Source: Deltaproteobacteria bacterium (GTDB lineage Bacteria; Desulfobacterota; Syntrophia; Syntrophales; Smithellaceae). From it: 49,747 nt of DNA. Below the pieces are notes generated by a model. That model did no database searches, was not told where the DNA came from, and saw nothing but the letters and a program-made list of their open reading frames with translations. Of the stretch, positions 4,859 to 22,654 are shown piece after piece (position 1 is the stretch's first letter; every line of letters starts with the position of its first letter). The stretch spans positions 1 through 49,747 of the forward strand of contig JAKLDS010000013.1 of the NCBI GenBank assembly GCA_022703375.1. The letters run 5' to 3'. Both the position numbers and the translations under genes were made by a program.

Positions 4859-6571
4859 ATGGAATATTACAGTATCCTGAATTTCAAGAAAGAACCGTTT
4901 TCCAATTCTCCGGAACCGGAATTTTTCTTTGAAGCGCCAAAACATATAAGTTGCCTGCAAAAGCTGGAACTGGCGGTGCGTTTGCGCCGGGGTCTTAATG
5001 TAGTCGTCGGCGGTGTCGGTACGGGGAAAACTACTTTATGTCGAAAGCTTATCCAGCAATTATCTGTTTCTCCCAAAGATTCTCAGGAAATTGAAACTCA
5101 TCTTTTGCTCGATCCGTCATTTGACGGCAGCATTGGATTTTTGCAGGCAATAAGTTCGCTGATCGGCGTGAAAGAGCTGGATGGCCAGGAAAATGAATGG
5201 CAGCTCAAGGAAAAGATTAAGAACTGTCTTTTTAATAAAGGGGTGAACGAAAATAAAATAGTTGTTTTAATTATTGATGAAGGCCAGAAAATTCCGGATA
5301 ACTGCATTGAGATATTAAGAGAATTTCTCAATTATGAAACTAATAATTTTAAACTGCTCCAGATAATAATATTTGCCCAGTTGGAATTTAAAAAAGTACT
5401 GAAAAAGTATGCCAATTTATCCGATAGGATAAATTACCTTTATTACATGAGCAATCTCCAGTTTCAGCATATGCGGCATATGATAGAATACCGCATTAAT
5501 GTAGCGAGGGATTTTGCAAAAGGTCCCGATCTTTTTACTTTCTGGGCAATGGTGGCCATCTATTTAGCCACCAGAGGTTATCCGCGCAAAGTAATATCCC
5601 TGTGTCATCAGGTGCTTTTGATGATGATCATCCGGGGCAAAAACAAAGCTGATTTCTTTCTGGTTAGAAATTGCATAAACGATATGTACTATAAGTTGTT
5701 TCATATAATGAAATGGGCGGCATTAAGCGCCGCTTTGATTATTACTGCCGGAATATTCATTACGTATGACCAGAATACAACAATAAATTTTTACAAACAA
5801 TTATCACTGCCGCAGCTTATGTCCCGGACTAAAAATTTATTTACCGATCCAATGATTCGCGTACCGGCGGAAATGACATCGCCTGCTTCCGTCCAGGCAA
5901 TGACTGCGGAAAACCAGCAAAATCCGCCAGTCCGGATTGCCGATTCTCCCTCCGTCAATTCCGGGTCTCCTGCTTCACCGGCAGCGGATTACACTGCACC
6001 AAATATTCTAACTGAATCAGTAAAAACTTTAACTCCGGCACCGGCAAATATTCCCGAAAGTGTAATTCAGGAGATAAAGATGCCGGATTCCCTGGGAACT
6101 TTAAGCATGAAAAAGGGCCGAACTCTCTGGCATACTATAAATAATATCTATGGCGATGTTACTCCGGAAATAATTGAAAAAATAAATAAAGCTAATCCGC
6201 ATATTAATAATGTGAATACGATTAAAGCGGGACAAAAAATTAATTTGCCGCCGATTCCTGTTAACGGCAGTCCATTACCGGACGGCGGTTTCATAGTCGC
6301 TCTGGCCAGAGGGAATGATATAGAAATCATGTATGACTTATTTCATGAAAATACTTACAAAAAGACTTTGCCGCCTCTATTGTTTTTTCCTTTCTGGAAC
6401 AGCAGGGAAGGCCTGACATGCGCGGTTATTCTTGACAGGAAGTTTAGCAATATCCAGGATGCAAAAGAAGCAATTAAAATATTGCCGGCGGAAGTGACGG
6501 CAAAAGCGCAAATCATATCTCACTGGGACGATAAGTCTGTTTTTTTCAATCGCCAGTCATTGAAAAATTGA
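4859..6571 (+). CDS. AAA ATPase of the GspA/ExeA/MshM type with C-terminal LysM domain
   Basis: 570-residue inner-membrane ATPase thought to help secretin or machine assembly through the peptidoglycan. The N-terminal AAA domain begins with the family start YYSILNFKKEPFSNSPEPEF and has a Walker A motif GGVGTGKTT (about 51-59) and a Walker B motif VVLIIDEGQ (about 135-142). A single transmembrane helix lies at about 286-305, followed by a Pro/Ser/Ala-rich periplasmic linker (about 325-405) and a LysM-like peptidoglycan-binding domain at about 412-463 ('TLWHTINNIYGD...INKANPHINNV..IKAGQKINLPP'). A further C-terminal domain of about 100 residues, possibly SPOR-like in secondary structure, was not recognised with certainty. 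MSHA operons carry MshM without LysM; the LysM-bearing form is typical of GspA-like proteins. Placement between secretin and PilB supports the role. Confidence 0.8.
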   Translation: MEYYSILNFKKEPFSNSPEPEFFFEAPKHISCLQKLELAVRLRRGLNVVVGGVGTGKTTLCRKLIQQLSVSPKDSQEIETHLLLDPSFDGSIGFLQAISSLIGVKELDGQENEWQLKEKIKNCLFNKGVNENKIVVLIIDEGQKIPDNCIEILREFLNYETNNFKLLQIIIFAQLEFKKVLKKYANLSDRINYLYYMSNLQFQHMRHMIEYRINVARDFAKGPDLFTFWAMVAIYLATRGYPRKVISLCHQVLLMMIIRGKNKADFFLVRNCINDMYYKLFHIMKWAALSAALIITAGIFITYDQNTTINFYKQLSLPQLMSRTKNLFTDPMIRVPAEMTSPASVQAMTAENQQNPPVRIADSPSVNSGSPASPAADYTAPNILTESVKTLTPAPANIPESVIQEIKMPDSLGTLSMKKGRTLWHTINNIYGDVTPEIIEKINKANPHINNVNTIKAGQKINLPPIPVNGSPLPDGGFIVALARGNDIEIMYDLFHENTYKKTLPPLLFFPFWNSREGLTCAVILDRKFSNIQDAKEAIKILPAEVTAKAQIISHWDDKSVFFNRQSLKN

Positions 6572-8327: not shown

Positions 8328-9548
8328 ATGTCCATATATGTTTATTCGGCCATCAATGAAAACGGCAATACCGTTTCCGGTACGCTGGAAGCGGAATCGG
8401 AAGAAATGGTTAATTCCATATTAGCTTCCCGCAATTTGATTCCATCCCGGATAGTTATCGAAAGTAAGGATAAAAGCAGCATTTTATCTTTGGCATCATT
8501 GAGCTTTGGTGGATCGGTAAAAACAGCTGATTTGATTCTTTTTACCAAACAGTTCCGTTCGATGCTGCAGGCCGGCGTTCCCATTATCCGGCTTTTGCTG
8601 GTGCTGGAAAACCAGACCCAGGACAAGACACTCAAAAGAGCTGTGATTGCCATCGGCCAAGATATTAAAGAAGGTTTATCGCTTTATGCGGCAATGAAAA
8701 AGCACCCGAAGATTTTTTCCCCTCTTTATCTCAGTATGATTAATGCGGGCGAAATCAGCGGTACAGTTCCCGAAATACTGGCGCGTCTTACTGACATTAT
8801 CGAACACGAGGCCAGAATCAAATCGGATATTAAGGCTGCTCTGCAATATCCGATTATTGTTGTGATAGCGCTGACCATTGCCTTTTTTGTGCTGCTGACC
8901 TTTGTCATCCCCAAATTTGTCGCCATCTTTGCCAAAGCAGGAATTGCTCTGCCTCTGCCTACCAGATTTGCCATGCTTCTCTATGAAGGACTGGCCAATT
9001 ACTGGCATATCCTTATTTTTGGAACTGTAGCTCTGATTATCGGTTTACGTTATTACTTCAAAACCGTCACCGGACGTTATACCCTCGACACTTTTCTGCT
9101 GAGCTTACCGCTCTTTGGCCCGTTGTTTCAGAAAGCGGCGATGTCTCGCTTTGCCAGTATATTTGCCATCATGCAGGCAAGCGGCGTGCCGGTAATGAAA
9201 ACAATGGAAGTTGTTTCCGATACAATCGGCAATTCCGCGATATCGCATGCTTTTGACCGCGTAAGAGACCAGATTCATGAAGGTAAGGGAATTTCCGGGC
9301 CGCTCGCCTCAGCAAAATATTTTACCCCGATGGTGGTGGATATGGTAGCCATCGGCGAAGAATCTGGTAATATTGAAGATATGATGCGGCAGGTATCCAT
9401 CCATTATGACGACGAAGTCCGTTATGCGGTAAAAGGTCTTTCCGATGCCATTGGTCCGATTTTAATCGTCGGTCTGGCGGCAGTTGTCGGTTTTTTTGCT
9501 TTGGCGATATTTTTGCCAATGTGGGATCTGACAAAAATGGTGAAATAA
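8328..9548 (+). CDS. Inner-membrane platform protein, PilC/GspF/MshG family
   Basis: 406-residue polytopic platform on which the pilus is built and which couples to the PilB-type ATPase. It has the two tandem T2SSF domains of this family (about 68-193 and 271-394), each with the helical pattern 'FTKQFRSMLQAGVPI...' and 'SRFASIFAIMQASGVPV'. Transmembrane segments lie at about 168-192 (IIVVIALTIAFFVLLTFVIP), 225-245, and 375-398. The family hallmark GEESGNIEDMM is near residue 343. It begins 13 bases after the ATPase gene ends, so the two are almost certainly co-transcribed. Length and domain order are canonical. Confidence 0.93.
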   Translation: MSIYVYSAINENGNTVSGTLEAESEEMVNSILASRNLIPSRIVIESKDKSSILSLASLSFGGSVKTADLILFTKQFRSMLQAGVPIIRLLLVLENQTQDKTLKRAVIAIGQDIKEGLSLYAAMKKHPKIFSPLYLSMINAGEISGTVPEILARLTDIIEHEARIKSDIKAALQYPIIVVIALTIAFFVLLTFVIPKFVAIFAKAGIALPLPTRFAMLLYEGLANYWHILIFGTVALIIGLRYYFKTVTGRYTLDTFLLSLPLFGPLFQKAAMSRFASIFAIMQASGVPVMKTMEVVSDTIGNSAISHAFDRVRDQIHEGKGISGPLASAKYFTPMVVDMVAIGEESGNIEDMMRQVSIHYDDEVRYAVKGLSDAIGPILIVGLAAVVGFFALAIFLPMWDLTKMVK

Positions 9549-9601: not shown

Positions 9602-10924
9602 ATGCCACGAGAAATAAGCAAAAAAAAGATTTTTATCAGCCTGTATATCATGATTCCTTTGATATTTGCCGGGTTGTCAATGCTGGCTGTCATTTTATCC
9701 TGTAAGATTGCGCATTATTATGAACAGGTAAATCAGTTATCTGCGGAAATTTTTTTTATCATGGTATTTATGGTAGGAGTGATAACTTTTATTATCAGCT
9801 TTATAATTTTGCGACTTATCTTGAAACCGGTCATGAAATTCGTCCGTAAAACACAGACAATGCCCCTTTTTAGCGATTCGAAATCCGAGAAATTATCAAT
9901 TACCGATGATATTGAACAGATTGCCGATGTTTTTCAAAAAGTCAGTAATTTATTAAGTCATGTGGAAGCAAGGGAATTATTTCCTAACATTATCGGTTCC
10001 AGCGCCATAATGAGAAATATTTTTTCCCAGATAATAAAGATTGCTCCAGCCGATTCCACCATACTGATTTCCGGCGAAAGTGGCACGGGCAAGGAAATAA
10101 TCGCCGAGGCGATATATGCTAACAGCCTGAGAAAAGGCAGGCCTTTCATCAAAATCAATTGCGTGGCGATACCCGAGGGATTACTGGAAAGCGAATTGTT
10201 TGGACATGAAAAGGGCTCATTTACCGGCGCCATCGCCCAAAAAAAAGGTAAATTTGAATTAGCGAACGGCGGCACTATTTTTCTCGATGAAATCGGGGAT
10301 ATGCCGCCCGCCACTCAGGCGAAATTACTGCGAGCGCTGCAGGAAAAAGAATTCGAGAGAGTTGGGGGCATTACACCTATCAAAGTTGATGTGCGTTTCA
10401 TTGTGGCGACCAATAAAAATTTGCCGGAAATGATTAAGGCGGGAACATTTCGTGAGGATCTCTATTTCCGTGTTAATGTTTTTTCCATTTACCTGCCGCC
10501 GCTGCGGGAAAGGGGTGAAGATATTTCCATGCTGGCCAATTATTTTTTAAATAAGTCAGCCAGGGAAGTCAAATTATCTTCCTCAACACTGCAAATTTTA
10601 ATCGGATATTCCTGGCCGGGAAATATCCGGGAATTAAAGAACGTCATAGAACAGGCAGGAGTTTTATGCGAAAATGGAGTTATTGAACCGCGCCATTTAC
10701 CGGATGCCATTTTAAAGCAGAGCCTGATGCCGGCGGTTAATGATTTAAATGAAAATATTACTCTTGATGAAAAGATAGCCCTGATGGAGAGGGAAATTAT
10801 AATAAACGCTTTAAAGAAAACAAATGGTGTGCAAGTTAAAGCAGCAGATATTTTAGGCATAAATCAAAGAAGCCTCTGGCACAGGATAAAAAAACTTGAT
10901 ATCGATGTAAGTTGCTTTAAATAA
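9602..10924 (+). CDS. Membrane-anchored sigma-54-dependent transcriptional activator
   Basis: 440 residues. Two transmembrane helices (about 11-32 and 49-71) with a very short periplasmic loop are followed by a HAMP-like linker (about 72-120). The sigma-54 AAA+ domain runs from about 130 to 355: Walker A GESGTGKE near 158, the sigma-54 contact loop as GSFTGA near 205 (Ser in place of the usual Ala), Walker B GGTIFLDEIGD near 228, and the sensor region with FREDLYFRVNVF. A Fis-type helix-turn-helix at about 400-437 binds DNA. There is no receiver domain and no partner kinase nearby, so it may sense the envelope state directly. It follows the platform gene by 53 bp and precedes a sigma-54-like promoter and two pilins, its probable targets. 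The membrane tether replaces the usual PilS/PilR pair. Confidence 0.9.
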   Translation: MPREISKKKIFISLYIMIPLIFAGLSMLAVILSCKIAHYYEQVNQLSAEIFFIMVFMVGVITFIISFIILRLILKPVMKFVRKTQTMPLFSDSKSEKLSITDDIEQIADVFQKVSNLLSHVEARELFPNIIGSSAIMRNIFSQIIKIAPADSTILISGESGTGKEIIAEAIYANSLRKGRPFIKINCVAIPEGLLESELFGHEKGSFTGAIAQKKGKFELANGGTIFLDEIGDMPPATQAKLLRALQEKEFERVGGITPIKVDVRFIVATNKNLPEMIKAGTFREDLYFRVNVFSIYLPPLRERGEDISMLANYFLNKSAREVKLSSSTLQILIGYSWPGNIRELKNVIEQAGVLCENGVIEPRHLPDAILKQSLMPAVNDLNENITLDEKIALMEREIIINALKKTNGVQVKAADILGINQRSLWHRIKKLDIDVSCFK

Positions 10925-11223: not shown

Positions 11224-11610
11224 ATGATAAAGGTTATGAGAAATGAAAAGGGTTTCACATTGATTGAAATTATTGCTGTTTTGGTAATTTTAGGAATTCT
11301 GGCAGCAGCCGCTGTGCCAAAATATATCAGCTTGCAAGATGAAGCTAGAAATAGTGCTGCACAAGCGGCAATTGCAGAAGTGAAAGCGCGAGCGAATCAG
11401 TATTATGCTTTATTAACTCTGCGTAACGCTGGAGCGCCAACTTCAAATGCGTCTATTGTTGCCTCGGTTACAGCAACTCCAGATGTAGGTGCTGATTTTA
11501 ACGTTGCAGCAGCAGCTTCTGGAAGTGATATTGTAATTACTGTTAATTCGGTCAAGACTTATAGTTTGAGTACTCCGGTTGTAGGAACGTGGTACTTCCC
11601 TAAAGAATAA
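11224..11610 (+). CDS. Type IV pilin (MSHA/PulG-like major pilin candidate 1)
   Basis: 128-residue prepilin. A short positive leader ending ...RNEKG is followed by the cleavage site G|FTLIEIIAVLVILGILAAA, with Glu5 of the mature protein conserved. Mature length is about 118 residues. The helical spine continues to about residue 70 (EARNSAAQAAIAEVKARANQYYA), and the C-terminal half is Ala/Ser/Thr/Val-rich with few charged residues. There is no cysteine, so the usual C-terminal disulphide loop is absent. A strong AAGGAGG sits about 6 nt before the ATG. It is the first gene after the candidate sigma-54 promoter and is closely paralogous to the next gene, 18 bp downstream. Which of the two is the major subunit cannot be told from sequence. 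Confidence 0.93.
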   Translation: MIKVMRNEKGFTLIEIIAVLVILGILAAAAVPKYISLQDEARNSAAQAAIAEVKARANQYYALLTLRNAGAPTSNASIVASVTATPDVGADFNVAAAASGSDIVITVNSVKTYSLSTPVVGTWYFPKE

Positions 11611-11628: not shown

Positions 11629-12000
11629 ATGATAAAGAATGAAAAAGGCTTTACGTTGATTGAAATTATTGCTGTACTAGTTATCTTAGGAATTTTAGCC
11701 GCAGTGGCTGTTCCAAAGTATATTGATATGCAGAATGAAGCAAGAACAAGTGCTGCGCAGGGAGCACTTGCTGAAGTGAAAGCAAGAGCCAATCAGTATT
11801 ACGCCATACAGACTTTGCGCAATGGTTCAGCAGCTTTAGCTGCATCTGTTCTTGCCTCTGTAACTACAGCGCCTGATCTTGGCGGCGATTTTGGTGTTTC
11901 CGCGGCAGCTTCGGGAAGTGATATCGCAATTACCGTTAGCACTGTAAAAGGATCAGCTTTGACAACTGCAGTTGTCGGAACATGGGTTTTTCCTAAATAA
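11629..12000 (+). CDS. Type IV pilin (MSHA/PulG-like, candidate 2, tandem paralogue)
   Basis: 123-residue prepilin with leader MIKNEKG, cleavage before FTLIE, and the same hydrophobic helix, EVKARANQYYA spine and closing VVGTW-FPK as the upstream pilin. Differences concentrate in the middle of the globular part (about residues 60-85), as expected after a tandem duplication followed by divergence at an exposed surface. It also lacks cysteine. The RBS AAGGTGA is about 9 nt before the ATG. A strong intrinsic terminator 23 bp after the stop closes the transcript. Two near-identical pilins may give mixed fibres or allow variation; that is inference. Confidence 0.93.
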   Translation: MIKNEKGFTLIEIIAVLVILGILAAVAVPKYIDMQNEARTSAAQGALAEVKARANQYYAIQTLRNGSAALAASVLASVTTAPDLGGDFGVSAAASGSDIAITVSTVKGSALTTAVVGTWVFPK

Positions 12001-12022
12001 ATAAGTATCCTATAATACATTA

Positions 12023-12055
12023 AATAGCGTGATTCCGATATCACGCTATTTTTTT
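12023..12055 (+). terminator. Intrinsic terminator after the pilins
   Basis: AATAGCGTGAT (12023-12033) and ATCACGCTATT (12040-12050) form a perfect 11-bp stem around a 6-nt loop, followed by a run of seven T (12049-12055). It ends the pilin transcript and lies against the stop codon of the convergent minus-strand gene, whose end overlaps the T-run. On the minus strand no good U-run follows, so it is mainly a plus-strand terminator. Confidence 0.9.
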
Positions 12056-14126
12056 ATATAAATTCCTTTAGGCGTTTCTTTAAAATAGATGAGATATTTT
12101 CGATATCGGGAATATAGACAAGCAGCATCTTGTCGCTGGTTAAGCCCTTAATGTAATTAGAAATATTCGAAGAACCCTTCAGGTAGATGAGAAAGCAGAT
12201 TTCCTGATTAACCATTTCTGAATCATTAATTTTTGCATATAATTCAATCAATGCCAAATTAATAAAGGCGTTTCGTGGTGCTAGTAAGCGCGAAGAATTT
12301 AAATAAGAGATGGCACCGGTATAATTATTTTTCTGGCGGCAAATTTCAGCCATGATCTGTAATGATAATATGGAATCAGGATTATGAATTAAACATTTTT
12401 TTACAAAATATTTGGATTCATTCAGCTTCCCAATTTTTAATAAAATAAAACTGTATAATTCCATCAGCTCGAAACTGCTGGGATATTTTCTTAATTTATC
12501 TTCAATAATTTTCTTGGCTTCCAGAATTTTGTTTTGCCTCATTTTTATTTTAGCTATATGAACTGTATTCTGGATATATTCTGGTAGGACTTTCAATGAT
12601 TTTTGAAAGTAGTTCAAGGCAAGATCGTTTTTCATTTCTCTGAAATACAACAGACCAGAGTTGTAGTTTTGAATAGCCCAGGCTTGTTCGCTGCCGAAAT
12701 TATTTAAAGCCATGGCTTTTTCATATTCGGAAAGAGCTTTCTCATTCATGTTAGAATTAGCGTATATCCTACCCAGGTTGGAGTGTGGTCTGCTCAGTCG
12801 GGGGGATTTTTCAATGTTGTCAAACCACAAAAGAAAATCGCTGGAAACAGTTTTGTTGCGTAAGTATGTATTATCTCCTGCGGCAACTAATATTATGACT
12901 ATTACCAAAGCGACAATTATCTGAATCATTTTTTTATAAGAAAAATAATCGATAGCGTAAATTATAAATTCGGCAACAGGAATAAATAAAAGCATTGCTG
13001 GCAAATAATTGCGGTGTTCATAAATTAATTCTAATGAGAAAATAGAGCTTTCAATGAGATGATTAAGTAAGAAGAAAATGATGCAAAAAGAAATTAAAGG
13101 ACGCTTTCTGGCAATGTAAAAGGCAATAGTAATTGCTATAAGAATTAACAAAATAGCAGGTAGTGTAGCCCATGGTTGGAACAGGGAATGAGAAATATTT
13201 ATATCGTAGAGCAAAGTCAGGCGGGAATTTATCGGGTAAAATAAAAGAGATAGATAAAATATAATAACACGTGGTTCAGTTAAGAGCCTTTCAACCATTG
13301 TGAAATCGCGTATTTTATAATCATCTAAAATAGCAGAAAAATCAGTATAGATAAATCCGGCGGCAGCAATAACTAAAACGGGTAAAGCAGCAAATTTCAG
13401 ATATTTTTTGATATTTTCTTTGCTTAATCCGGCTATTAAAAACAAATCATAAATGAATATGCTTGCCGGCAGCATAACGGCGTTTTCTTTGGACAAAACA
13501 GCTGCCAGGCCGGATATCGTGCATAAAGTGAAAAAAATTATGGAACAGCGGTTGTTGGAGGCAGTTCTTGCTTTGAGATACAAGAACATGGACATTATGT
13601 AGAAAAGTCCGGCCATGGAAGCCATCCGCTGCACGATATAAGTAACGGATGTAACTTGAACGGGGTTGATTGCCCAGAAAAACGTTGACAGAAGGGCAAC
13701 AGGATAAGCAATTTTTGCGTATTTCTCTCGGATGAGCGGAAGTTTTAATGTCTGCAAAATAAAAAGAAATAAAAATACGGCTGCAAGATAATGAATGATA
13801 ACGTTAACAATATGGTAACCAAATACATTGGAACCATCGAAATAATAATTCCAGGAAAAACTCAGATAAGATAATGGACGCGATGGGCTTTTCTGCTCCA
13901 ATCCGTAGATACAATGATTTATTTTTTCCCAGGAATAATCTTTGATTTGTATATGGGGGTTATTGACTATGTTGGCGAAATCATCAAAGTGCCACTCGCC
14001 ATAAAAACTGTTGGAATAAATAATTAACAGGAAAATAAATAACGAAATAAATGCAAATAAATGCTGGGAATCTATCCGGAAATTGAATTTAATAGGTAAT
14101 GCAAAACCGTTTTCTTTAGAAATCAT
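12054..14126 (-). CDS. Multi-pass GT-C-like glycosyltransferase with C-terminal TPR repeats (TMTC/PMT-like)
   Basis: 690-residue membrane protein. The N-terminal part (about 25-415) has roughly ten hydrophobic helices. The first large periplasmic loop begins WHFDDFANIVNNPHI (acidic pair Asp48-Asp49), the catalytic-type loop of GT-C / O-mannosyltransferase-like proteins; RPLSYLSFSWNYY follows in the same loop. The C-terminal part (about 430-660) carries TPR repeats ('RPHSNLGRIYANSNMNEKALSEYEKAMAL' type). This TMTC-like architecture is known from protein O-glycosyltransferases, but many bacterial members are uncharacterised. The RBS GGAG is 7 nt before the ATG. It is the last gene of a nine-gene minus-strand glycan cluster and lies nearest the pilins, so pilin O-glycosylation is a reasonable inference. 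Confidence 0.7.
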   Translation of the reverse strand: MISKENGFALPIKFNFRIDSQHLFAFISLFIFLLIIYSNSFYGEWHFDDFANIVNNPHIQIKDYSWEKINHCIYGLEQKSPSRPLSYLSFSWNYYFDGSNVFGYHIVNVIIHYLAAVFLFLFILQTLKLPLIREKYAKIAYPVALLSTFFWAINPVQVTSVTYIVQRMASMAGLFYIMSMFLYLKARTASNNRCSIIFFTLCTISGLAAVLSKENAVMLPASIFIYDLFLIAGLSKENIKKYLKFAALPVLVIAAAGFIYTDFSAILDDYKIRDFTMVERLLTEPRVIIFYLSLLFYPINSRLTLLYDINISHSLFQPWATLPAILLILIAITIAFYIARKRPLISFCIIFFLLNHLIESSIFSLELIYEHRNYLPAMLLFIPVAEFIIYAIDYFSYKKMIQIIVALVIVIILVAAGDNTYLRNKTVSSDFLLWFDNIEKSPRLSRPHSNLGRIYANSNMNEKALSEYEKAMALNNFGSEQAWAIQNYNSGLLYFREMKNDLALNYFQKSLKVLPEYIQNTVHIAKIKMRQNKILEAKKIIEDKLRKYPSSFELMELYSFILLKIGKLNESKYFVKKCLIHNPDSILSLQIMAEICRQKNNYTGAISYLNSSRLLAPRNAFINLALIELYAKINDSEMVNQEICFLIYLKGSSNISNYIKGLTSDKMLLVYIPDIENISSILKKRLKEFI

Positions 14127-14149: not shown

Positions 14150-15097
14150 TTATTCAACATGTATTTTATAGTGCTTTCCGGTTGAATAACGATCAAATGT
14201 AAAAAATACAGCAGCAAGAAAAATTTCGGCAATCGTAATGATGATCCTTGTCAAAATTGTAGCAAAAATTACGACAGGCTTGGAGATCAATGCCGGGAGA
14301 ATAAGGAAAACAACGCCTTCGCGTACACCTATTCCAGCCGGAGCAAAGATAGCCACCACACCGATGAGTGATGCGAGATAATAAACGCTGGTTATTATCA
14401 AAAAATAATTCCAGCCGACGGAATAAAAACAATTAAAGGCGAAAAAAAGTCCGAGGCCGTAAGGCAAACAGACCAGCATATTAATTCCCACTAATTTAAG
14501 CAGGAAACCATAGGATGGCAAACTGGTCAAAGGTTCGCGTTTTATCAGCCGGAAAGCCATATCTGTTATTTTTTTAAGGATCGGCGGATATAAAATTATC
14601 AGGAAAATACATACCATGCCCAAGGAAACCCAACGGATGAATGGTGGTATCCATTCAGGGATGAAGGCTATCGATATAAGGACTAGAAGGCAGGATGCTG
14701 CCATCGTAGTGACAAATTCAACTCCGGTTGCTACAGCGATAGTTCTTTTAGGAACATCGGAGTGAATATCCATGCGAATAAGAAGTATTCCGATTTTGCC
14801 GGGTACATATTTGCCCAGTTGCGAAAGGCTCCAAGCATTAGCAGCCGCAAGGAAAGATAATTTAATGCCGAAGGAGCGGGCTAAATACAGCCAGATCATC
14901 AACTGAACTAAATAGGCGAGAACTGTAAAAATGAAGCTCAGAGAAAGATATGTCCAGTTCAAATGATAATCAAATCCACTAAGGTTGCCAGTAGCCTTAT
15001 AGATATATAATAATACACCAGATAAAACAGCGATAAAGAGTATCCGACTGTACCATCGTTTTCCGCGGGAAGTATTAAGGGCAGTATTGTTATTCAT
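14150..15097 (-). CDS. Flippase-like integral membrane protein (LPG_synthase_TM / UPF0104 family)
   Basis: About 315 residues with seven to eight hydrophobic helices and family motifs: 'WLYLARSFG' followed by 'NAWSLSQLGKYVPGKIG' (the conserved PGK-G after the third helix) and 'FAPAGIGVREGVVFLIL' near the C-terminus. These are signatures of the lysylphosphatidylglycerol-synthetase transmembrane region, found alone in many polysaccharide clusters and proposed to move lipid-linked substrates. Function within a glycan cluster is inferred, not demonstrated. The ORF can start at TTG 15103, but ATG at 15097 is preferred. It is followed 23 bp downstream by the GT-C/TPR gene and probably co-transcribed with it. 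Confidence 0.75.
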   Translation of the reverse strand: MNNNTALNTSRGKRWYSRILFIAVLSGVLLYIYKATGNLSGFDYHLNWTYLSLSFIFTVLAYLVQLMIWLYLARSFGIKLSFLAAANAWSLSQLGKYVPGKIGILLIRMDIHSDVPKRTIAVATGVEFVTTMAASCLLVLISIAFIPEWIPPFIRWVSLGMVCIFLIILYPPILKKITDMAFRLIKREPLTSLPSYGFLLKLVGINMLVCLPYGLGLFFAFNCFYSVGWNYFLIITSVYYLASLIGVVAIFAPAGIGVREGVVFLILPALISKPVVIFATILTRIIITIAEIFLAAVFFTFDRYSTGKHYKIHVE

Positions 15098-15130
15098 AGT
15101 CAAAGTATTTTGTCAGTGGATTCATGCAAA

Positions 15131-15961
15131 TCAGTTGTGCATTATATTTTTCTCTATCAAATAAAACGACCATAATGTTGGTAATTTTCTGTTTTTGAAT
15201 AAACCATCAAGAACAGCGAGACCGTGAAAAAAACCGCGTGCCCAATTATGTGGAAGAAACCTTGCTGCCATATATATCCAGAGAAAGAAAAAAGTTGTTG
15301 CCGGAATGCGTTTCTCCCGGATAACGGCACCACCGGCCTGATGAACGACTGCGGCAATTTCAGCGGCAGAAAAACATCTGCCCCCGGTATTCATATTGCT
15401 GTAGTTATGGAACAACCTGGCGAGCCCAAAACAGGTCTGAAATATTATTCCGGATTTGTCAGGTTCAATTAAAATTATTTTCCCGCTGGTATTTAAATGA
15501 GCAAATAAAAAGGAAAATACTTCTTTTAATTTATTTTCCGGCAGATACATTAACACGGTTACGACAATAATATAATCGAAGGTTCCTGCTTCTGGAGGAA
15601 TTGCTTCAGCACTGCCTACAAATGCTTCTCCACCTGTATTTTCCCGGTACAATTTTACATAATTGGGGCTGATATCAATTCCTGTTATTTGAGCCTGGGG
15701 AAACTTTTGAATAACCGGTAAGGATAATCTGCCATATCCGCAGCCGATATCAAGAATTCTAATTGTATCTTTATTTCCTTCGATGCATTCAAAAATAAAA
15801 TTTTGATGAATCGAGTCAAAATATTCATTGGCTGAATCCGGCATGCCCTTAAAAAGGACGCTTCTTAAGGTAGAACCGTAATCAATGCTTCTATTTTCCC
15901 AGGCAGCGGAGGTGTTTTCCACCGGGTAATCATTTGTTGCCCGGTTATGATTTGATGGCAC
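15131..15961 (-). CDS. Class I SAM-dependent methyltransferase
   Basis: 276 residues. Motif I reads ILDIGCGYGRLSLPV (about 70-84), motif II/post I ITGIDISPNYVKLY about 20 residues later, and a motif III-like strand FDYIIVVTVLMYLPENKL (about 130-148), all typical of small-molecule methyltransferases. The C-terminal third is less conserved and has an aromatic amphipathic stretch (FFFLWIYMAARFLP), possibly a membrane-associating helix. The start appears to be GTG at 15961 with GGAG about 10 nt upstream. In a glycan cluster, O- or N-methylation of a sugar or a lipid carrier intermediate is plausible. The substrate cannot be read from sequence. Confidence 0.8.
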   Translation of the reverse strand: MPSNHNRATNDYPVENTSAAWENRSIDYGSTLRSVLFKGMPDSANEYFDSIHQNFIFECIEGNKDTIRILDIGCGYGRLSLPVIQKFPQAQITGIDISPNYVKLYRENTGGEAFVGSAEAIPPEAGTFDYIIVVTVLMYLPENKLKEVFSFLFAHLNTSGKIILIEPDKSGIIFQTCFGLARLFHNYSNMNTGGRCFSAAEIAAVVHQAGGAVIREKRIPATTFFFLWIYMAARFLPHNWARGFFHGLAVLDGLFKNRKLPTLWSFYLIEKNIMHN

Positions 15962-15981
15962 GACTGATTTCTCCAGATAAT

Positions 15982-17127
15982 TTATATATTTTGAAAATAC
16001 GCAAGTAAAGTTTCAACAATGTAATCTATCTGCTCATCCTTAATGCCGGCATACATGGGCAATGTCAGTTCGTGTGCCGCGATGGATTCCGTTAAAGGCA
16101 GATATGGCGTTTTAAAATGTTGCCGATGAAACGTAAAATTATGGACGGGTGGATAATGAATACTGGTTTGAATGCCCAGTCCGCGCAGATAAGTCATCAA
16201 ATCCCGCCGGTCAATGGAATCGTGAAGCAGAACGGGGAAAAAATGATAATTAGCTTCCGTATGTCTGTCGGCAAAGGGTAATTTTATTTCAGATATTTTC
16301 TTTAATCCTCTTTTATAACGCAGGGCTGCCAACCGGCGGTATTTGTTACCAGCATCGAGCTTTCTTAACTGGACTCTGCCCAAGGCGGCGTGGATTTCAT
16401 CCAACCGATAATTATAACCGAGAGCGGTAATGTCATAGCTGAAGGCATGGCCGCGATGGCGGTCAACGGTGCCGCTGGTCATCCCGTGAGAACGGACACT
16501 TTTTATTTGTTCGGCATATTCGTCATTATTCGTGCAGATCATGCCTCCTTCGCCGGTCGAAATATTCTTGTTGGAAAAAAAGGAAAAACAGGAAATGTCA
16601 CCGATTGCGCCCAATTTCTTTTCCCGATAAGTGGAACCGGGTGCATGAGCAGCATCTTCAATCACGGCAATTTTATGAGACCGCGCTATTTTCATAATCT
16701 CATCCATTTGGCAGGCAAAGCCGCCGTAATGCATGATTGTGACGGCTTTTGTATCCTGGGTTATTTTTCGGGCGATATCTTCCGGCGATATTGTCCAGTC
16801 GTCTGGCGATGTAATATCGGCGAATACCGGAGTTCCGCCAGAGTAAATAATCGCATTGGCAGTAGCCGCAAAAGTAAGCGCGGGGCAAATGACTTCACTG
16901 CCTTGCTGCACGCCGGCGACGACATTGGCCAGATGCAGGGCGGTTGTGCCGCTGCTCACGGCGAGGGCATGTTTGACACCGCAATAGCCTGCAAATTCCT
17001 GCTCGAAAGCAGCTATTTCTTCGCCCATCGTCAGCCATTTGCCGCGCAAAACACGTAAGACGGCTTCTTCTTCGTCGGGGCCGTAATCGAGATCGAAAAG
17101 CGGAATTACCGGATTGGAAGCCTTCAT
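15982..17127 (-). CDS. DegT/DnrJ/EryC1/StrS-family PLP-dependent sugar aminotransferase
   Basis: 381 residues with the full fold-type I pattern of nucleotide-sugar aminotransferases. Features include 'VSSGTTALHLA' (cofactor phosphate binding, about 57-67), 'EDAAHAPGSTY' (Asp that holds the pyridine nitrogen), and the Schiff-base lysine in 'FFSNKNISTGEGGM' at about residue 187. The C-terminal 'YNYRLDEIHAALGRVQL' is also present. It transfers an amino group, usually from Glu, to a keto-sugar nucleotide. The LegB-like dehydratase and the oxidoreductase-acetyltransferase fusion in the same operon could both supply keto sugars; which one it serves (C4 or C3 amination) is undecided. Its ATG overlaps the stop codon of the nucleotidyltransferase (ATGA). 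Confidence 0.88.
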   Translation of the reverse strand: MKASNPVIPLFDLDYGPDEEEAVLRVLRGKWLTMGEEIAAFEQEFAGYCGVKHALAVSSGTTALHLANVVAGVQQGSEVICPALTFAATANAIIYSGGTPVFADITSPDDWTISPEDIARKITQDTKAVTIMHYGGFACQMDEIMKIARSHKIAVIEDAAHAPGSTYREKKLGAIGDISCFSFFSNKNISTGEGGMICTNNDEYAEQIKSVRSHGMTSGTVDRHRGHAFSYDITALGYNYRLDEIHAALGRVQLRKLDAGNKYRRLAALRYKRGLKKISEIKLPFADRHTEANYHFFPVLLHDSIDRRDLMTYLRGLGIQTSIHYPPVHNFTFHRQHFKTPYLPLTESIAAHELTLPMYAGIKDEQIDYIVETLLAYFQNI

Positions 17128-17822
17128 AAGCTATCCTTGATTTTATCGTAATCTTCTATGGCCTGTTCGTAATCATCAGGCCTGCCGATATCCATCCAGT
17201 AGCCTTCGTAAGGATGACAATAAATTTTCTTTTTCTCCAGCAGAAGTTTTTGCACCAGATCGGGAAAATCGAAACGTCCGTGTTTGGGAATATAGGAGAC
17301 GACCGACCGGGAAAGAATATAAATGCCCATGCTGACGTTGAAATCATAAGACGGCTTTTCGGCGAAATTTGTCAGTAGCAGATCATTGTTGTATTCCAGA
17401 GTTCCGTAATTTATATTCTGTGTGCGCTTGTGCGTGGCGATGGTCAAACCGGCCTTTTTTTTCTTATGCAGAAAAAAGAGCTTTTTATAATCGATATCCG
17501 TAAGAATATCTCCATTCATCATTAAAAACGTGTCTTCCAGATTTTCGATAAAGCAGATCGGCGCTGCCGTACCCAGAGGTTCTTTTTCAATATAATAATC
17601 TATTTTTATTCCCCATTTTTCACCACTGCCGAAAAAGGCCATGAAAAGATCATGCTGATGGCCTATCGCCATGGTTATCTTTTTAAACCCTGATTTCTTC
17701 AATTGCCGGACAACAACTTCCAATATCGGACAATCGCCGATGGGCATAAGCGGTTTCGGCAATACCGTAGTATATGGTTTTAAACGAGTGCCTTTTCCTC
17801 CAGCCAGTATAATTGCCTGCAT
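17124..17822 (-). CDS. Nucleotidyltransferase for sugar-1-phosphate (NDP-sugar pyrophosphorylase)
   Basis: About 232 residues forming only the Rossmann-like nucleotidyltransferase domain, without the beta-helix tail of GlmU. The signature AIILAGGKGTRLKPYTTVLP followed by KPLMPIGDCPILE opens the protein. 'EKEPLGTAAPI' and 'MNGDILTDIDY' (metal-binding Asp) follow, and 'GYWMDIGRPDDYEQA' closes it. It activates a sugar-1-phosphate with NTP. In legionaminic-type pathways a similar enzyme (PtmE-like) makes GDP-GlcN, and its neighbour here is a LegB-like dehydratase, so that substrate is a guess. GTG at 17831 is possible, but ATG at 17822 is preferred because AGGTG lies about 7 nt before it. It starts just after the dehydratase stop. 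Confidence 0.87.
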   Translation of the reverse strand: MQAIILAGGKGTRLKPYTTVLPKPLMPIGDCPILEVVVRQLKKSGFKKITMAIGHQHDLFMAFFGSGEKWGIKIDYYIEKEPLGTAAPICFIENLEDTFLMMNGDILTDIDYKKLFFLHKKKKAGLTIATHKRTQNINYGTLEYNNDLLLTNFAEKPSYDFNVSMGIYILSRSVVSYIPKHGRFDFPDLVQKLLLEKKKIYCHPYEGYWMDIGRPDDYEQAIEDYDKIKDSL

Positions 17823-17831
17823 GATTAACAC

Positions 17832-18812
17832 CTATTTTGTATAGTGATCGGGCTTGTAACAACTGATGTTCTGTTTGATCCAATTAATCGTCTGGAGAAG
17901 CCCCTCCTCCAGGGAATAATTGGGACGCCATTTGGTATTTTTCCTGATTTTTCCGTTGTCGCAAAAAAGACGTTTTACTTCACTCCGGGACGGACGCTTG
18001 CGTTCCGCAGATGATTGCAGCTTGATTTTGACATTGCACAAACGGGCAATTGTCATGGCCAGTTCTTTTACGGATATTTCCGCTCCATTGCCGATGTTGG
18101 TTACTTCTCCGGTAAGTTTCTTTGCTCCAGCAATCTTTATAAAACCATCCACGGTATCGCTGACAAAGGTCAAATCGCGTGTCGGAGTGAGATTGCCCAG
18201 GTTCAGATTGGTGTTGCCTGATAATACCTGGCTGATGATGGTTGGAATGATTGCACGCGACGATTGACGGGGACCGTATGTATTGAAAGGCCGCACAATT
18301 TTCACCGGCAGTTGAAAAGACAGCCAGTAGCTTAAAGACAGTTGATCGGCGGCAATCTTTGATGCGGAGTAGGGAGATTGGCCGACCAAGGGATGCTTTT
18401 CGGAAATGGGGACGAATTGAGCGCTTCCGTATGTTTCGCTGGTGGAAGTTACCACGACATTTTCCAGATTGGCCAGGCGGGCATTTTCCAGAATATTATA
18501 AGTGCCTTCGATATTTGTTTTGAGATAAGCTAAAGGTGAATCATAGGAATAGGGGATGCCGATCAGTGCGGCTAAATGAAATACTTCCTTACAGCCCTGC
18601 ATTGCTTTGCGGACTGAATCGTAATCGCGGATATCTCCGGAATGTATTTCGATTTTCTGAAGATAAGGAGAATTTTCGAGCCATCCCCAGTTACTACTGG
18701 AATTATAACGGACAAAAGCACGAACATCGTAACCTAGTTCGACAAGTTTTTCCGTTAGGTGGCTGCCGATAAAACCGCCGGCGCCGGTAACCAATACTTT
18801 ATGCGCAGTCAT
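17832..18812 (-). CDS. NAD-dependent sugar-nucleotide 4,6-dehydratase/epimerase, LegB-like SDR
   Basis: 326-residue extended short-chain dehydrogenase. The NAD-binding motif is VTGAGGFIGSHLTEKL. The catalytic region is TSTSETYGSAQFVPI (Thr/Ser and Glu) with YSASK (Tyr and Lys). 'RPFNTYGPRQSSRAIIPTII' and 'RDLTFVSDTVDGF' follow. The segment 'VRAFVRYNSSSNWGWL' after the first helix is typical of the LegB-type family (GDP-GlcNAc 4,6-dehydratase), which in many genomes clusters with an aminotransferase and a nucleotidyltransferase, as here. The product would be a 4-keto-6-deoxy sugar. No NeuB-like synthase is in the window, so a 4-amino-4,6-dideoxy sugar may be the end product, or later genes lie elsewhere. 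Confidence 0.82.
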   Translation of the reverse strand: MTAHKVLVTGAGGFIGSHLTEKLVELGYDVRAFVRYNSSSNWGWLENSPYLQKIEIHSGDIRDYDSVRKAMQGCKEVFHLAALIGIPYSYDSPLAYLKTNIEGTYNILENARLANLENVVVTSTSETYGSAQFVPISEKHPLVGQSPYSASKIAADQLSLSYWLSFQLPVKIVRPFNTYGPRQSSRAIIPTIISQVLSGNTNLNLGNLTPTRDLTFVSDTVDGFIKIAGAKKLTGEVTNIGNGAEISVKELAMTIARLCNVKIKLQSSAERKRPSRSEVKRLFCDNGKIRKNTKWRPNYSLEEGLLQTINWIKQNISCYKPDHYTK

Positions 18813-18813
18813 A

Positions 18814-19977
18814 TTAATTATTTAAGCTCCTTATCTTATCGTAAATTATTTCTGCTCCTGCTTCCACTGATAAGATTGCAGCGAGTTCTTCATAACGCTG
18901 CTTGTCGTAAAAAGCGCTCCGCAATCGGGAATCGCTCATTTTCATTAAAACATCGGCAAGTTCATCCTGATTTTCAGGTGGAACAACATAACCTAAATTA
19001 TATTTTTCGGCAAGAAAACCCATATCACCGACATTACTGACAACGAATGGTTTCCCTGCGGCAATTCCTTCGGACATAACCAACGGTATGCTCTCGCTTC
19101 TCGATGGTATGACAACGCAATCGCTCTTGCTTATCAACTCGGCGACGGCATCGTCTTCAAGGCGTCCCGTTAATATCACGTTTTGTTCCAGAGATAAACT
19201 TTTAACCAATTTTATCAGATTTTCTTTTTCTTCTCCTGCCCCCACCAAATAACAACAAAAAGAAATTCTTTTTTGAAGGAGGAGAGCACAAGCTTTAACA
19301 AGAATGTCCTGGCCTTTGACCTTGTGCAGCCTTCCGATACAGCAGAAGGTAAAACGATCATTATCCCGGATTTTTGGAAAAGTTTCCGTCTCAATGTTAT
19401 TTTCCAGCTTCCTTGACGTTGCGGCAAAAAAACATTCTTTGCCGGCTGCAAGAAGGGAAGTTTTCCGGCACAGATCGAAACCGTCGGCGAACAGCAAAGT
19501 GCTTTTCCGGACGATTCGTTTTATTACAGGACGAAGCAGGGGATTGCCCGCAGCAATATAAACATCCGAGCCCAATGCCCGGCAGGCATAAGGAATGCCG
19601 GTAAAGAAGGAAAGAAACCGGGCAATTAATCCCGCCGGAATCAACCATTCGGCAAAAATTATATCCGGCTGCCAGATACGGCAGATGCGCATTCCGGCTA
19701 GAGAGCCTTTTGCCAAATATTGCCCAACAAGAAAAATTCCGGAAGTTCGTTGCCGGATCAGTTCCACCAGCGGAATATCCCCGCCTTTCCAGCCGAAATA
19801 AGTAATGTCACAGCCCTTCCATAACGATTTGGATATGGTATACTTACTTTCGCAATTTTGGGTAAGAACGTGAACTTGGGCTCCCAAAACATTAAGGGCG
19901 CGGATAGTGTCCGGGATGAATACACCGGCGATACTGTCATGGCGCGGGAAGCTGCTGGTGATTAGCAGTATTTTCAT
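18814..19977 (-). CDS. Glycosyltransferase family 4-like (GT-B)
   Basis: 387-residue retaining-type glycosyltransferase with two Rossmann domains. The N-terminal acceptor domain opens MKILLITSSFPRHDSIAGVF. The C-terminal donor domain has 'FTFCCIGRLHKVKGQDILVKA' and the E-x7-E-type region 'SRSESIPLVMSEGIAAGKPF' typical of GT4. The frame extends upstream to 20037, but ATG at 19977 is preferred because it overlaps the preceding stop codon (ATGA) and gives the usual GT4 N-terminus. It is probably cytoplasmic and peripherally membrane-bound, adding one sugar to a lipid-linked glycan. Donor and acceptor are unknown. Confidence 0.87.
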   Translation of the reverse strand: MKILLITSSFPRHDSIAGVFIPDTIRALNVLGAQVHVLTQNCESKYTISKSLWKGCDITYFGWKGGDIPLVELIRQRTSGIFLVGQYLAKGSLAGMRICRIWQPDIIFAEWLIPAGLIARFLSFFTGIPYACRALGSDVYIAAGNPLLRPVIKRIVRKSTLLFADGFDLCRKTSLLAAGKECFFAATSRKLENNIETETFPKIRDNDRFTFCCIGRLHKVKGQDILVKACALLLQKRISFCCYLVGAGEEKENLIKLVKSLSLEQNVILTGRLEDDAVAELISKSDCVVIPSRSESIPLVMSEGIAAGKPFVVSNVGDMGFLAEKYNLGYVVPPENQDELADVLMKMSDSRLRSAFYDKQRYEELAAILSVEAGAEIIYDKIRSLNN

Positions 19978-21557
19978 TTTAGTAATTGCAGCCCTTTTTT
20001 GGACTTGAGAATATATATACTGCCGCATTTCGGGCATTGGTATTTGGCGTTTAGATTATTGCCGCAGTGGCACATCCAGCCTTTTTGCCGGGCCGGGTTG
20101 CCGAGCATCAGGGCAAAATCAGGAACATCTCCGGTAACGACAGCTCCGGCGGCAATAAAGGCGTAGCTGCCGATAGTATTGCCGCAGACGATTGTGCAAT
20201 TGGCGCCCAATGTTGCTCCCTTCTTGACCAGTGTAGGTTTAATTTCAGAAATCCTTTTAATCTCGGAACGGGGATTAATTACATTAGTGAAGACACAGGA
20301 CGGTCCGCAAAAAACATAATCTTCGAGAGTTACACCTTTGTAAACAGAAACATTGTTCTGGATTTTACAGCCATTGCCAACAGTGACATCCGGTCCGATA
20401 ACAACATTTTGGCCGATAGAACAATTCTCGCCGATTTTTGAGCCAGCTATTATGTGGGAGAAATGCCAGATTTTTGTTCCTGTTCCAATTTTCACATTAT
20501 TGTCTATCTGAGCTGTCGGATGGATAAAAAGGCTTTCTCTGCCGGCTTCCGTTGTTGTTTCTGAATGTTTTAGATTAATTCTTAAACCGTTATTATTCAT
20601 GGAAGACTCTGCGGCATTTAACACTCGAAGAACGCGCAGCCCTTCAGCTCCATCCGTCTTTGCCTGTTTTTGATTGGCGAGACAGCCAATAAAATGTTCA
20701 CATTCCAGCTTCAGCGGTTCTGCGTATGGGATGGAAACTTTTTCCGGAATACCGCGTGTCGGAACGGGTAAATTATTTTCCCATTTTACCTGATGAGGAT
20801 AAACAAGCAGTTTTTCCTCCCAGGGCAGGGTGTCGTCAAAGACCGCCATTTTTTTATCACCGACGACAACCAGCTTCTGCTCTTTAAAAGGATGTAGCCA
20901 GGAAACAAATATGTGAGCTTTCAGTCCGGAAGAAAATTCCAAATGAGTTGTTGTGACATCGGCAATTTTTTTATGCAGATAATTACCCCCTGTCGCAATC
21001 ACGTTTTCCGGTTCTTCACCGGCAAGAGCCAGAATCATGGAAATATCGTGAGGGGCGAATGACCATAAAATATTTTCTTCCCGGCGGATTTTCCCGAGAT
21101 TAAGGCGGCGGGAATAAATGTAATTTATCCGCCCCAAATCGCCGGCAGAGGCCAGTTCAATTAATCTAATAAAAGCCGGATGATATTGCAAAAGATGGCC
21201 AACCATTAAAATCAAATTTTGCTTTTGTGCAATCGCGATTAATTCTTCGGCATCTTTTTCCGACAAAGTCAGCGGCTTTTCAACTAATACATGTTTGCCG
21301 GACAAAAGAGCTTCGCGTGCCAGAACGAAATGAGTTTCCGCAGGCGTTGCCACAACAACAGCCTTGATGCCTTTATTGGCGATTAATTCCTTGAGAGAAG
21401 AATAAAAAACACAGTGGGGATAGGCTTTGCTTAACTCTTTAATAGTCCCAGGATTTTTTTCGCAAACGGCCTTTAAAACGCCCAATTCGGAAAAAATGCG
21501 GACGAGATTTTTACCCCAATATCCCGCCCCGACAACTGCTATTGATTTATTATTCAT
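19974..21557 (-). CDS. Fusion: Gfo/Idh/MocA oxidoreductase + hexapeptide N-acetyltransferase + C-terminal Cys motif
   Basis: 527 residues combining two enzymes that are usually separate. Residues about 1-325 are a Gfo/Idh/MocA dehydrogenase ('VVGAGYWGKNLVRIFSELG', 'VLVEKPLTLS', 'MVGHLLQYHP'), resembling WlbA/WbpB, which oxidises C3 of a UDP-sugar acid. Residues about 343-490 are a left-handed beta-helix acetyltransferase ('IHPTAQIDNNVKIGTGTKIW', 'IGQNVVIGPDVTVGNGCKI'), resembling WlbB/WbpD, which acetylates a 3-amino group. The last 25 residues hold CxC-x9-CxxC, a zinc-ribbon-like motif. In the known pathway an aminotransferase acts between these two steps, and one is in this operon. Which sugar is made is inference. 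It shares ATGA overlaps with both neighbours. Confidence 0.88.
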   Translation of the reverse strand: MNNKSIAVVGAGYWGKNLVRIFSELGVLKAVCEKNPGTIKELSKAYPHCVFYSSLKELIANKGIKAVVVATPAETHFVLAREALLSGKHVLVEKPLTLSEKDAEELIAIAQKQNLILMVGHLLQYHPAFIRLIELASAGDLGRINYIYSRRLNLGKIRREENILWSFAPHDISMILALAGEEPENVIATGGNYLHKKIADVTTTHLEFSSGLKAHIFVSWLHPFKEQKLVVVGDKKMAVFDDTLPWEEKLLVYPHQVKWENNLPVPTRGIPEKVSIPYAEPLKLECEHFIGCLANQKQAKTDGAEGLRVLRVLNAAESSMNNNGLRINLKHSETTTEAGRESLFIHPTAQIDNNVKIGTGTKIWHFSHIIAGSKIGENCSIGQNVVIGPDVTVGNGCKIQNNVSVYKGVTLEDYVFCGPSCVFTNVINPRSEIKRISEIKPTLVKKGATLGANCTIVCGNTIGSYAFIAAGAVVTGDVPDFALMLGNPARQKGWMCHCGNNLNAKYQCPKCGSIYILKSKKGLQLLK

Positions 21558-22654
21558 GATTTGTACAACCTTTCATTGTCCTGAATATCCATCCACATCG
21601 CAAATAAAAACGATTGGAAACTGCCGGTGAAGAGAATGAAAAAAGCAAGCATGGTAACAGGATTGACTTCGTGTCCATTCCAGGCCAGCGATATTATTTT
21701 AATTGCGTATGGAAGAGAAAGTACGCCCAGCACGATGGCGAAATGATAAAGAAGAAAAAGAGGGTGAAAGTCGCGGAATAAATATTTCACCCACAGCCTT
21801 TTAAAGAAAGATTTAAACAACAACCATGAAATAAGGGGGATGACAATGCCGACTTTCATCTTGGATTGCTCACCGATATTGTAAACTGGTTTGATTTTTA
21901 CTTCTTTCAGAGTGCAAAAAGCAATATTCAATTTCACCAGCATGTCATTGGGCATGCCGTATTTGTTATAAATGTCAGAGAGCCTGATAGAGCTTAATGC
22001 GGAAAGCGAAATGGCAGTATAGCCGGTTTGTGTGTCGGATACATGCCAGTAACCGGAGGCGATTTTCGTCAAAATTGATAAAATTGAATTGCCGATGAAA
22101 CGCGTTTTCGGCATGACAAGTTTTGCGGAACCGTGAATCAGACGGTTGCCCTTTACATAATCAATTTCTTCATTGATAACGGGCAGGCAGATTGATTCCA
22201 GCTCCGCCGGATCCATCTGACCATCGCCGGCCATGACGGCGGTGCAGTCAATATTATAATCGAGGCACCATTTATAACCGCGGGCGATGGCCGCTCCGAC
22301 GCCGCCGTTTTGCAGATGATTGATCAAAATAATCCGGTCGGTTTCCGGATTGGTATTGGCGATTTCCGAAGGGATGAACTTTCCCAACTCTGCCGCCCGG
22401 TTTTCCTGCAGGACTATATCGGCATGGTTGTATTTACTTTGGGCGACGGGGGTTGCATTCAGATTGGGAATGCTGATTGTTGGTTCTTGCCGTCTGGAAT
22501 ATTCGAGTACTGCCATCGCGGTGTTGTCTTCAGAACAATCGTTGACAACTATAATTCTGTCCACAAAAGAAGGCATTGTTTCCAAAACCTGAACAATCTG
22601 CTTTTCTTCGTTATAAGCCGGTATCACAACGGCGACTTTTTTGTTATTCAACAT
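21554..22654 (-). CDS. Family 2 glycosyltransferase with C-terminal membrane helices
   Basis: 366 residues. The GT-A domain begins VAVVIPAYNEEKQIVQVL and contains IIVVNDCSEDNTA. The nucleotide-binding acidic motif is AGDGQMDPAEL (about 143-153), with 'IDYVKGNRL' and 'DTQTGYTAIS' downstream. Two to three hydrophobic helices near the C-terminus (about 265-355) resemble polyprenyl-phosphate glycosyltransferases of the DPM1/ArnC type. An insertion after the first strand (about 50-100) is unusual for the family. It is the first gene of the minus-strand glycan operon, with AGGA about 6 nt before the ATG. It may make a polyprenyl-linked sugar donor for the GT-C protein at the other end of the cluster; that link is inference. 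Confidence 0.87.
   Translation of the reverse strand: MLNNKKVAVVIPAYNEEKQIVQVLETMPSFVDRIIVVNDCSEDNTAMAVLEYSRRQEPTISIPNLNATPVAQSKYNHADIVLQENRAAELGKFIPSEIANTNPETDRIILINHLQNGGVGAAIARGYKWCLDYNIDCTAVMAGDGQMDPAELESICLPVINEEIDYVKGNRLIHGSAKLVMPKTRFIGNSILSILTKIASGYWHVSDTQTGYTAISLSALSSIRLSDIYNKYGMPNDMLVKLNIAFCTLKEVKIKPVYNIGEQSKMKVGIVIPLISWLLFKSFFKRLWVKYLFRDFHPLFLLYHFAIVLGVLSLPYAIKIISLAWNGHEVNPVTMLAFFILFTGSFQSFLFAMWMDIQDNERLYKS

Follow-up and report, generated by a model that had tools for sequence, protein, structure and literature searches.

Organisation of the Locus

The window, that is, the whole stretch of 49,747 nucleotides that was analysed, contains an intact open reading frame with an ATG start. 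It encodes a protein of 690 amino acids, termed the enzyme in the following. The surrounding features are:

12054–14126 (−): TPR-fused GT-C transferase gene, 690 amino acids (open reading frame, Pfam TPRs, structural matches)
12819–14126 (−): predicted GT-C membrane domain, residues 1–436, 11 helices in the model
12057–12818 (−): C-terminal TPR region, residues 437–690, predicted periplasmic (Pfam TPRs; matches to the TPRs of PilF, MamA and OGT)
12022–12051 (both strands): bidirectional terminator-like hairpin in the gap between pilA2 and the enzyme gene
11629–12000 (+): type IV pilin pilA2, proposed acceptor (N_methyl, Pfam)
11224–11610 (+): type IV pilin pilA1, proposed acceptor (N_methyl, Pfam)
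9602–10924 (+): sigma-54 activator adjoining the pilins, its position kept in many relatives

The enzyme gene and pilA2 are convergent, with 53 bp between the end of pilA2 and the stop codon of the enzyme gene. The adjacency to pilins noted in the initial annotation is thus borne out by two N_methyl pilin genes. Pilins adjacent to the enzyme were not enriched in Ser/Thr (0.208, n = 78) relative to other pilins of the same loci (0.211, n = 19), and no invariant Ser/Thr acceptor site was seen in the printed alignment rows of the adjacent pilins. The sigma-54 activator has two predicted N-terminal membrane helices and no receiver-domain match; it is possibly a membrane-tethered regulator of the pilins. 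The pil operon also encodes an AAA ATPase with a LysM-like segment (4859–6571, +), present in 89 of 155 genomes of the class. The host genome (2.57 Mb, 95% complete) has Smithella and other Syntrophaceae/Deltaproteobacteria as named near relatives. It encodes several TMTC-like paralogues of the enzyme and, elsewhere, a second pair of a pilin and a TMTC-like protein (L082).

Upstream of the enzyme, a run of sugar genes on the same strand extends to position 22654:

14150–15103 (−): PF03706 membrane protein (44.4 bits, cut-off 33.4), candidate lipid-linked-sugar flippase by inferred role
15131–15961 (−): SAM methyltransferase
15982–17127 (−): DegT-type sugar aminotransferase, PseC-like, below the NCBIfam cut-off
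17124–17831 (−): sugar-1-phosphate nucleotidyltransferase
17832–18812 (−): LegB-like 4,6-dehydratase (466.4 bits, cut-off 475)
18814–20037 (−): GT4 glycosyltransferase
19974–21557 (−): fusion of a sugar 3-dehydrogenase-like protein and a hexapeptide acyltransferase
21554–22654 (−): GT2 with C-terminal membrane segments (PF00535; three hydropathy segments), candidate lipid-linked-sugar synthase

None of the sugar-operon proteins passed an NCBIfam cut-off, and the GT2 matched no lipid-sugar synthase or other specific family. From these genes, we infer an amino-deoxy sugar as the operon product. Mannose as the sugar, implied by the initial annotation, is not supported: the neighbouring operon resembles a pathway for an amino/deoxy sugar. 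Further along the window, a macro-domain protein (24805–25335, −) directly adjoins a PAS hybrid histidine kinase.

Domain Structure and Conserved Residues

Pfam and NCBIfam recognised only the TPRs of the enzyme. TPR_2, TPR_1 and TPR_14 passed the Pfam cut-offs, with the best stretches in residues 448–629, which confirms the C-terminal TPR array. Residues 1–11 recall a prepilin N-terminus (conserved M[IL]xKENGFxLP; compare the prepilin leader KNEKGFTLIE). As Glu5 and a directly following hydrophobic helix are both missing, KENGFxLP was treated as a mere resemblance.

The 50 matches listed by Foldseek for a full-length model were TPR or other helical-repeat proteins, with no GT-C protein among them. 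The membrane domain (residues 1–436) was therefore modelled alone by AlphaFold2 from 12 sequences (pTM 0.72, pLDDT 64.3). By our own count, the model has 11 long helices at a pLDDT of 64, compared with nine segments by hydropathy. The earlier estimate of about ten helices was fair; 11 are likelier. The model is moderately confident with poor loops, so the fold was relied on and the details were not. In a comparison with the PDB, rows 1–37 of the 50 listed (Z 15.2–9.8) consisted entirely of GT-C or GT-C-like proteins. The best were Stt3 (15.2), Pmt4 (14.7) and ArnT (14.3); AglB, PglB, Emb, ALG and PIG-U were also present. PIG-U we take to be a GT-C-like protein. After these rows, Z falls to 6.4 with a receptor in row 38. 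The Foldseek top five were Stt3, Pmt4 twice, ArnT and PIG-U (E 0.03–0.32). Structures of WaaL/PglL were absent among the 50 PDB matches listed, which says nothing on a real absence of likeness. Structure prediction, the check set beforehand, thus assigns a GT-C fold to the modelled membrane domain.

Conserved residues were compared with the TMTC motifs as defined in the list available from PMC7801869. Counts refer to 81 clade members, gaps excluded:

13980–13985 (−): Asp48–Asp49 of HFDD, first periplasmic loop, TMTC motif M1 (D48 77/77, D49 75/77)
13875–13880 (−): Arg83–Pro84, matching RP of motif M2 (R 78/78, P 68/78)
13626–13628 (−): Arg167, motif M3 with its Asp lost (79/79)
13485–13490 (−): Lys213–Glu214, KE of motif M4 (K 79/79, E 71/79)
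13203–13205 (−): Asp308 in loop EL4, candidate motif M5 without the Trp of DW (72/81)
13005–13019 (−): EHRNY 370–374, similar to motif M7 (H 78/81, R372 80/81, Y374 81/81)

DD of M1, RP of M2, KE of M4 and R/Y of M7 are all present in the expected loops. M3 and M5 are incomplete: Arg167 is followed by M-A, so that the Asp of RxD is lost, as is the Trp of DW. PF08409 (TMTC_DUF1736) was not one of the 15 families that were listed for the enzyme at E ≤ 5. It exceeded its cut-off in none of 40 genomes, and the enzyme gene was without a match. The acidic pair of HFDD (residues 46–49) in the first periplasmic loop, singled out by the initial annotation, is nearly invariant in the pilin-linked clade. 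The resemblance to TMTCs holds for the predicted topology and most motifs (D48/D49, R83, K213, R372, Y374); it does not extend to membership, with PF08409 unmatched. Because PF08409 does not match and M3 and M5 lack their Asp and Trp, respectively, the enzyme was not filed as a TMTC: it has a TMTC-like build and is not a TMTC. It probably works like one.

Linkage of Enzyme and Pilin Across Relatives

Relatives were collected by searches of the class, with hits in 67 of 155 genomes (E ≤ 1e-40), and of the phylum, with hits in 73 of 297 (E ≤ 1e-30). The tree comprised 134 rows after removal of identical copies, of fragments without a membrane domain or shorter than 400 amino acids, and of hits below 160 bits; the duplicate L192 was dropped later. 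A row was testable with at least 700 bp readable on both flanks, and adjacent meant a pilin within about 700 bp. L054, with the detected pilin at 708 bp and another pilin nearer, was scored as adjacent. The enzyme itself stands outside the linkage counts.

The orthologue clade spans Syntrophales and other Desulfobacterota. A pilin was adjacent in 46 of its 61 testable members, compared with none of 36 in the adjoining clade (Fisher p 8e-15, uncorrected for shared descent); the other 15 of the 61 had no pilin within the limit of about 700 bp. The main clade alone had 37 of 51 pilin-adjacent rows. A group of 13 rows contributed nine of ten, and its junction with the main clade has weak support (63). 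Among more distant paralogues (hits below 150 bits, including 40 fetched as controls), 2 of 46 were pilin-adjacent. Pilin linkage exceeds chance. The linked genes occur in several arrangements, convergent as well as co-directional. Parsimony on the tree required at least 12 changes between pilin and none and 22 changes of the finer arrangement, so the pilin link is not one frozen block. Short second copies of about 600 amino acids adjoin other pilins (L065, L071, L072, L123, L136). Tandem TPR-GT-C genes lie beside the orthologue in L045/L038 and L123.

The AAA gene of the pil cluster was present and the enzyme missing in 38 of 89 class genomes (E ≤ 1e-40), which makes the enzyme an accessory component. 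Pil loci were inspected in 19 of these 38 genomes, and so was a second pil locus from a genome whose enzyme gene lies at another place. The sequence extends beyond the pilin in 12 of these 20 loci. Seven of the 12 have another TPR-GT-C protein beside the pilin (L223, L224, L225, L229, L234, L239, L242; profile E 6e-45 to 5e-17). In L230 the neighbour is another kind of multi-helix protein, whose TPRs are weak, and four loci have neither. The link between enzyme and pilin is real and forms a conserved cassette, a transferase gene beside a pilin gene. A viral scan gave one match, a TMTC-like relative of 31% identity (L222:3001–4101); its contig is filed as viral.

Mosaic History of the Gene

Judged by its sequence relationships, the enzyme gene is a mosaic: up to about residue 476 it groups with one genus, and the TPRs beyond that point group with another.

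12699–12701 (−): residue 476, best-scoring ancestry switch (permutation p 0.0002)

For the GT-C half, the sister is L046 (100/99); the TPR half groups with nine rows, eight of them from another genus (96/94). Each half rejects the grouping of the other. The GT-C data reject the TPR-half grouping with a p-AU of 3e-6 (long-branch row L018 left out), and the TPR data reject the grouping with L046 with a p-AU of 1e-64; both tested groups were named after the identities had been seen. Identity to L046 per 30 residues is 60–97% up to residue 480 and 26–47% thereafter. Past residue 480, identity to L084/L085/L045 is 41–70%. The predicted protein-recognition half, the TPRs, appears to be exchangeable between relatives.

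The flanking genes have mixed affinities as well. Sugar genes 14150–20037 and the AAA gene are nearest to genus g4 (66–85%); the methyltransferase belongs here on its bit score, and a g2 copy has 67% identity. For the pilins, identity is 61% with g2, 64–70% with g5 and roughly 50% with g4. PilC (8328–9548, +) departs from its neighbours: its identity is highest with g5 (82%, L234), followed by g4 (73%) and g2 (63%). From these identities, the pil locus itself looks mosaic. In L054 of g4, the TPR half groups with L086/L087 of g5 (99/98), and so does the pilin, in a group that also holds a g3 pilin (100/98). In two genomes, the TPR type follows the pilin type and not the GT-C half.

A partial Mantel test of TPR against pilin distance given the GT-C half gave r = 0.57 (31 pairs, 0 of 2000 permutations); its counterpart, GT-C given TPR, gave 0.10 (p 0.14). 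The neighbouring sigma-54 gene also tracks the TPRs (0.74, 12 loci), so the signal is not specific to pilins and was not counted as coevolution. A transfer of pilin and TPRs as one block from a single donor did not fit cleanly and was rejected as well: L056 has the nearest pilin (70%) and a TPR half just 38% alike.

A tentative explanation, which we hold to be possible rather than likely, is that the enzyme acts as an adaptor between donor and acceptor. Together with roughly the first TPR, the GT-C half would remain tied to the sugar operon, and the other TPRs would match the pilin and be exchanged between lineages with the pilin type. In the convergent layout, the 3′ TPR end of the gene faces the pilins and the 5′ GT-C end the sugar genes, so the gene would be a junction, and a single crossover within it could bring an old glycan together with a new pilin. 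Two results count against the adaptor explanation: L056 as an exception, and the sigma-54 control, which showed the signal to be unspecific. If the explanation is true, the TPRs of TMTC-like enzymes are modules of acceptor specificity, which would be relevant to eukaryotic TMTCs too.

Predicted Function and Alternatives

We consider it reasonably likely that the enzyme is a GT-C glycosyltransferase that faces the periplasm, depends on a lipid-linked sugar and serves specifically the type IV pilins beside it. The operon enzymes (nucleotidyltransferase, LegB-like dehydratase, aminotransferase, dehydrogenase/acyltransferase and methyltransferase) would, according to their families, make an unusual sugar. 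A glycosyltransferase may load it onto a polyprenyl carrier and the PF03706 protein may flip the carrier-linked sugar. The GT-C domain, with Asp48/Asp49 and Lys213 and Arg372 as candidate phosphate-binding residues, would then transfer the sugar to a pilin hydroxyl, the periplasmic TPRs holding the pilin before assembly. The linkage makes the pilin the putative acceptor. In favour of this reading are the fold, the near-invariant catalytic residues, the pilin linkage in its various arrangements, the second copies beside other pilins, the other TPR-GT-C proteins that occupy the slot, the sugar operon kept by L045, L051 and L053, and the precedent of PglL. Against it are the lack of Ser/Thr enrichment in adjacent pilins, the 15 of 61 testable clade members with no pilin in range, the accessory distribution, the variation of sugar operons among loci, the unassigned GT2 and linkage counts that are uncorrected for shared descent.

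Rather unlikely, in our assessment, is a GT-C enzyme that acts on LPS, capsule or some other glycan of the envelope as a member of the sugar operon, the pilin neighbourhood being inherited synteny. The enzyme is in line with the sugar operon, the close relatives L045, L051 and L053 keep enzyme and the same operon without a pilin neighbour, and many paralogues within the same genomes have no pilin nearby. However, linkage to pilins is characteristic of a single clade, in which it takes several arrangements and occurs at several loci, and the slot beside the pilin is filled by differing TPR-GT-C proteins. In many relatives the pilin is kept while the adjacent sugar genes change.

Function as a pilus-assembly factor, with TPRs like those of PilF/PilW/Tgl or as a TfpY-type accessory protein and a membrane domain that is not mainly catalytic, seems improbable. 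The TPR part does align with PilF (2ho1, Z 18.8) and PilW (2vq2, Z 16.3), and TfpY is described in part of PMC11841053 as a pilin-accessory protein that does not glycosylate. These TPR matches are generic, though, the NCBIfam PilW model scored only 33 bits (cut-off 154) and the catalytic residues are near-invariant. A broad protein O-glycosyltransferase with the pilin as one substrate among many has a precedent in neisserial PglL, for which a section of PMC3643930 gives several substrates. We regard this as very improbable here, as several TMTC-like paralogues in the genome and the clade-specific pilin linkage suggest divided substrates. A transferase dedicated to the pilins remains the preferred reading.

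This reading offers a defined candidate acceptor for bacterial TMTC-like TPR-GT-C proteins, and the relatives supply a natural set of enzyme–pilin pairs. Target choice by TMTC-type TPRs becomes directly testable with small pilins and TPR swaps. Pilin glycosylation is predicted for syntrophic Desulfobacterota, whose surface fibres attract interest.

Comparison With Known Systems

Glycosyltransferases beside pilins are of a known kind, with PglL, TfpO and TfpW as examples in the sections available of PMC3643930 and PMC11841053. The former places 21 of 31 PglL homologues next to or near pilin genes and reports the loss of ComP glycosylation in an A. baylyi knockout; a reference title within the latter calls TfpW a GT-C enzyme. 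The expectation of a new type of pilin transferase was therefore too strong, and the novelty of the TPR-fused architecture stands. New here are this architecture, the way it is spread among Desulfobacterota and the modular history behind it. No report of pilin-linked TPR-GT-C enzymes was found among the open-licence papers listed, and the main text of PMC5174107, on pilins in Desulfuromonadales, contains neither ‘TPR’ nor ‘glycosyl’.

TfpW and TfpO of Pseudomonas aeruginosa also have the transferase gene beside the major pilin gene; the likeness is by description and not by sequence. In contrast to them, the enzyme is TPR-fused and often convergent with the pilin. O-oligosaccharyltransferases of the PglL/ComP type are likewise often encoded beside a pilin gene, but carry Wzy_C (PglL/WaaL), for which Pfam found no match in the enzyme; one Wzy_C protein is encoded elsewhere in the genome.

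The PMT family, ArnT and Stt3 share the GT-C fold with the enzyme at about 6–12% identity in structural alignments, and the TPR array sets the enzyme apart. PMT_2 did not match it at E ≤ 5; two of 12 A1 members match. TMTC1–4 have, in the part of PMC7801869 available, 11 membrane helices and TPRs on the non-cytosolic side. The enzyme has the same order of a GT-C domain followed by TPRs, 11 helices in the model and TPRs predicted in the periplasm. Shared residues are DD (loop 1), RP, R (loop 2), KE (loop 3), and R and Y (loop 5). The enzyme differs in the missing PF08409 match, Asp of RxD and Trp of DW, and in being bacterial, linked to pilins and adjoining an amino-sugar operon.

Three-component systems that transfer lipid-linked sugars (GtrA/GtrB/Gtr; GT136) are already known, as a portion of PMC11127046 describes. 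They similarly combine a glycosyltransferase, a flippase and a GT-C enzyme, here encoded in one operon with the GT2 and the flippase as candidates. Unlike in those systems, the acceptor would be a pilin and not O antigen.
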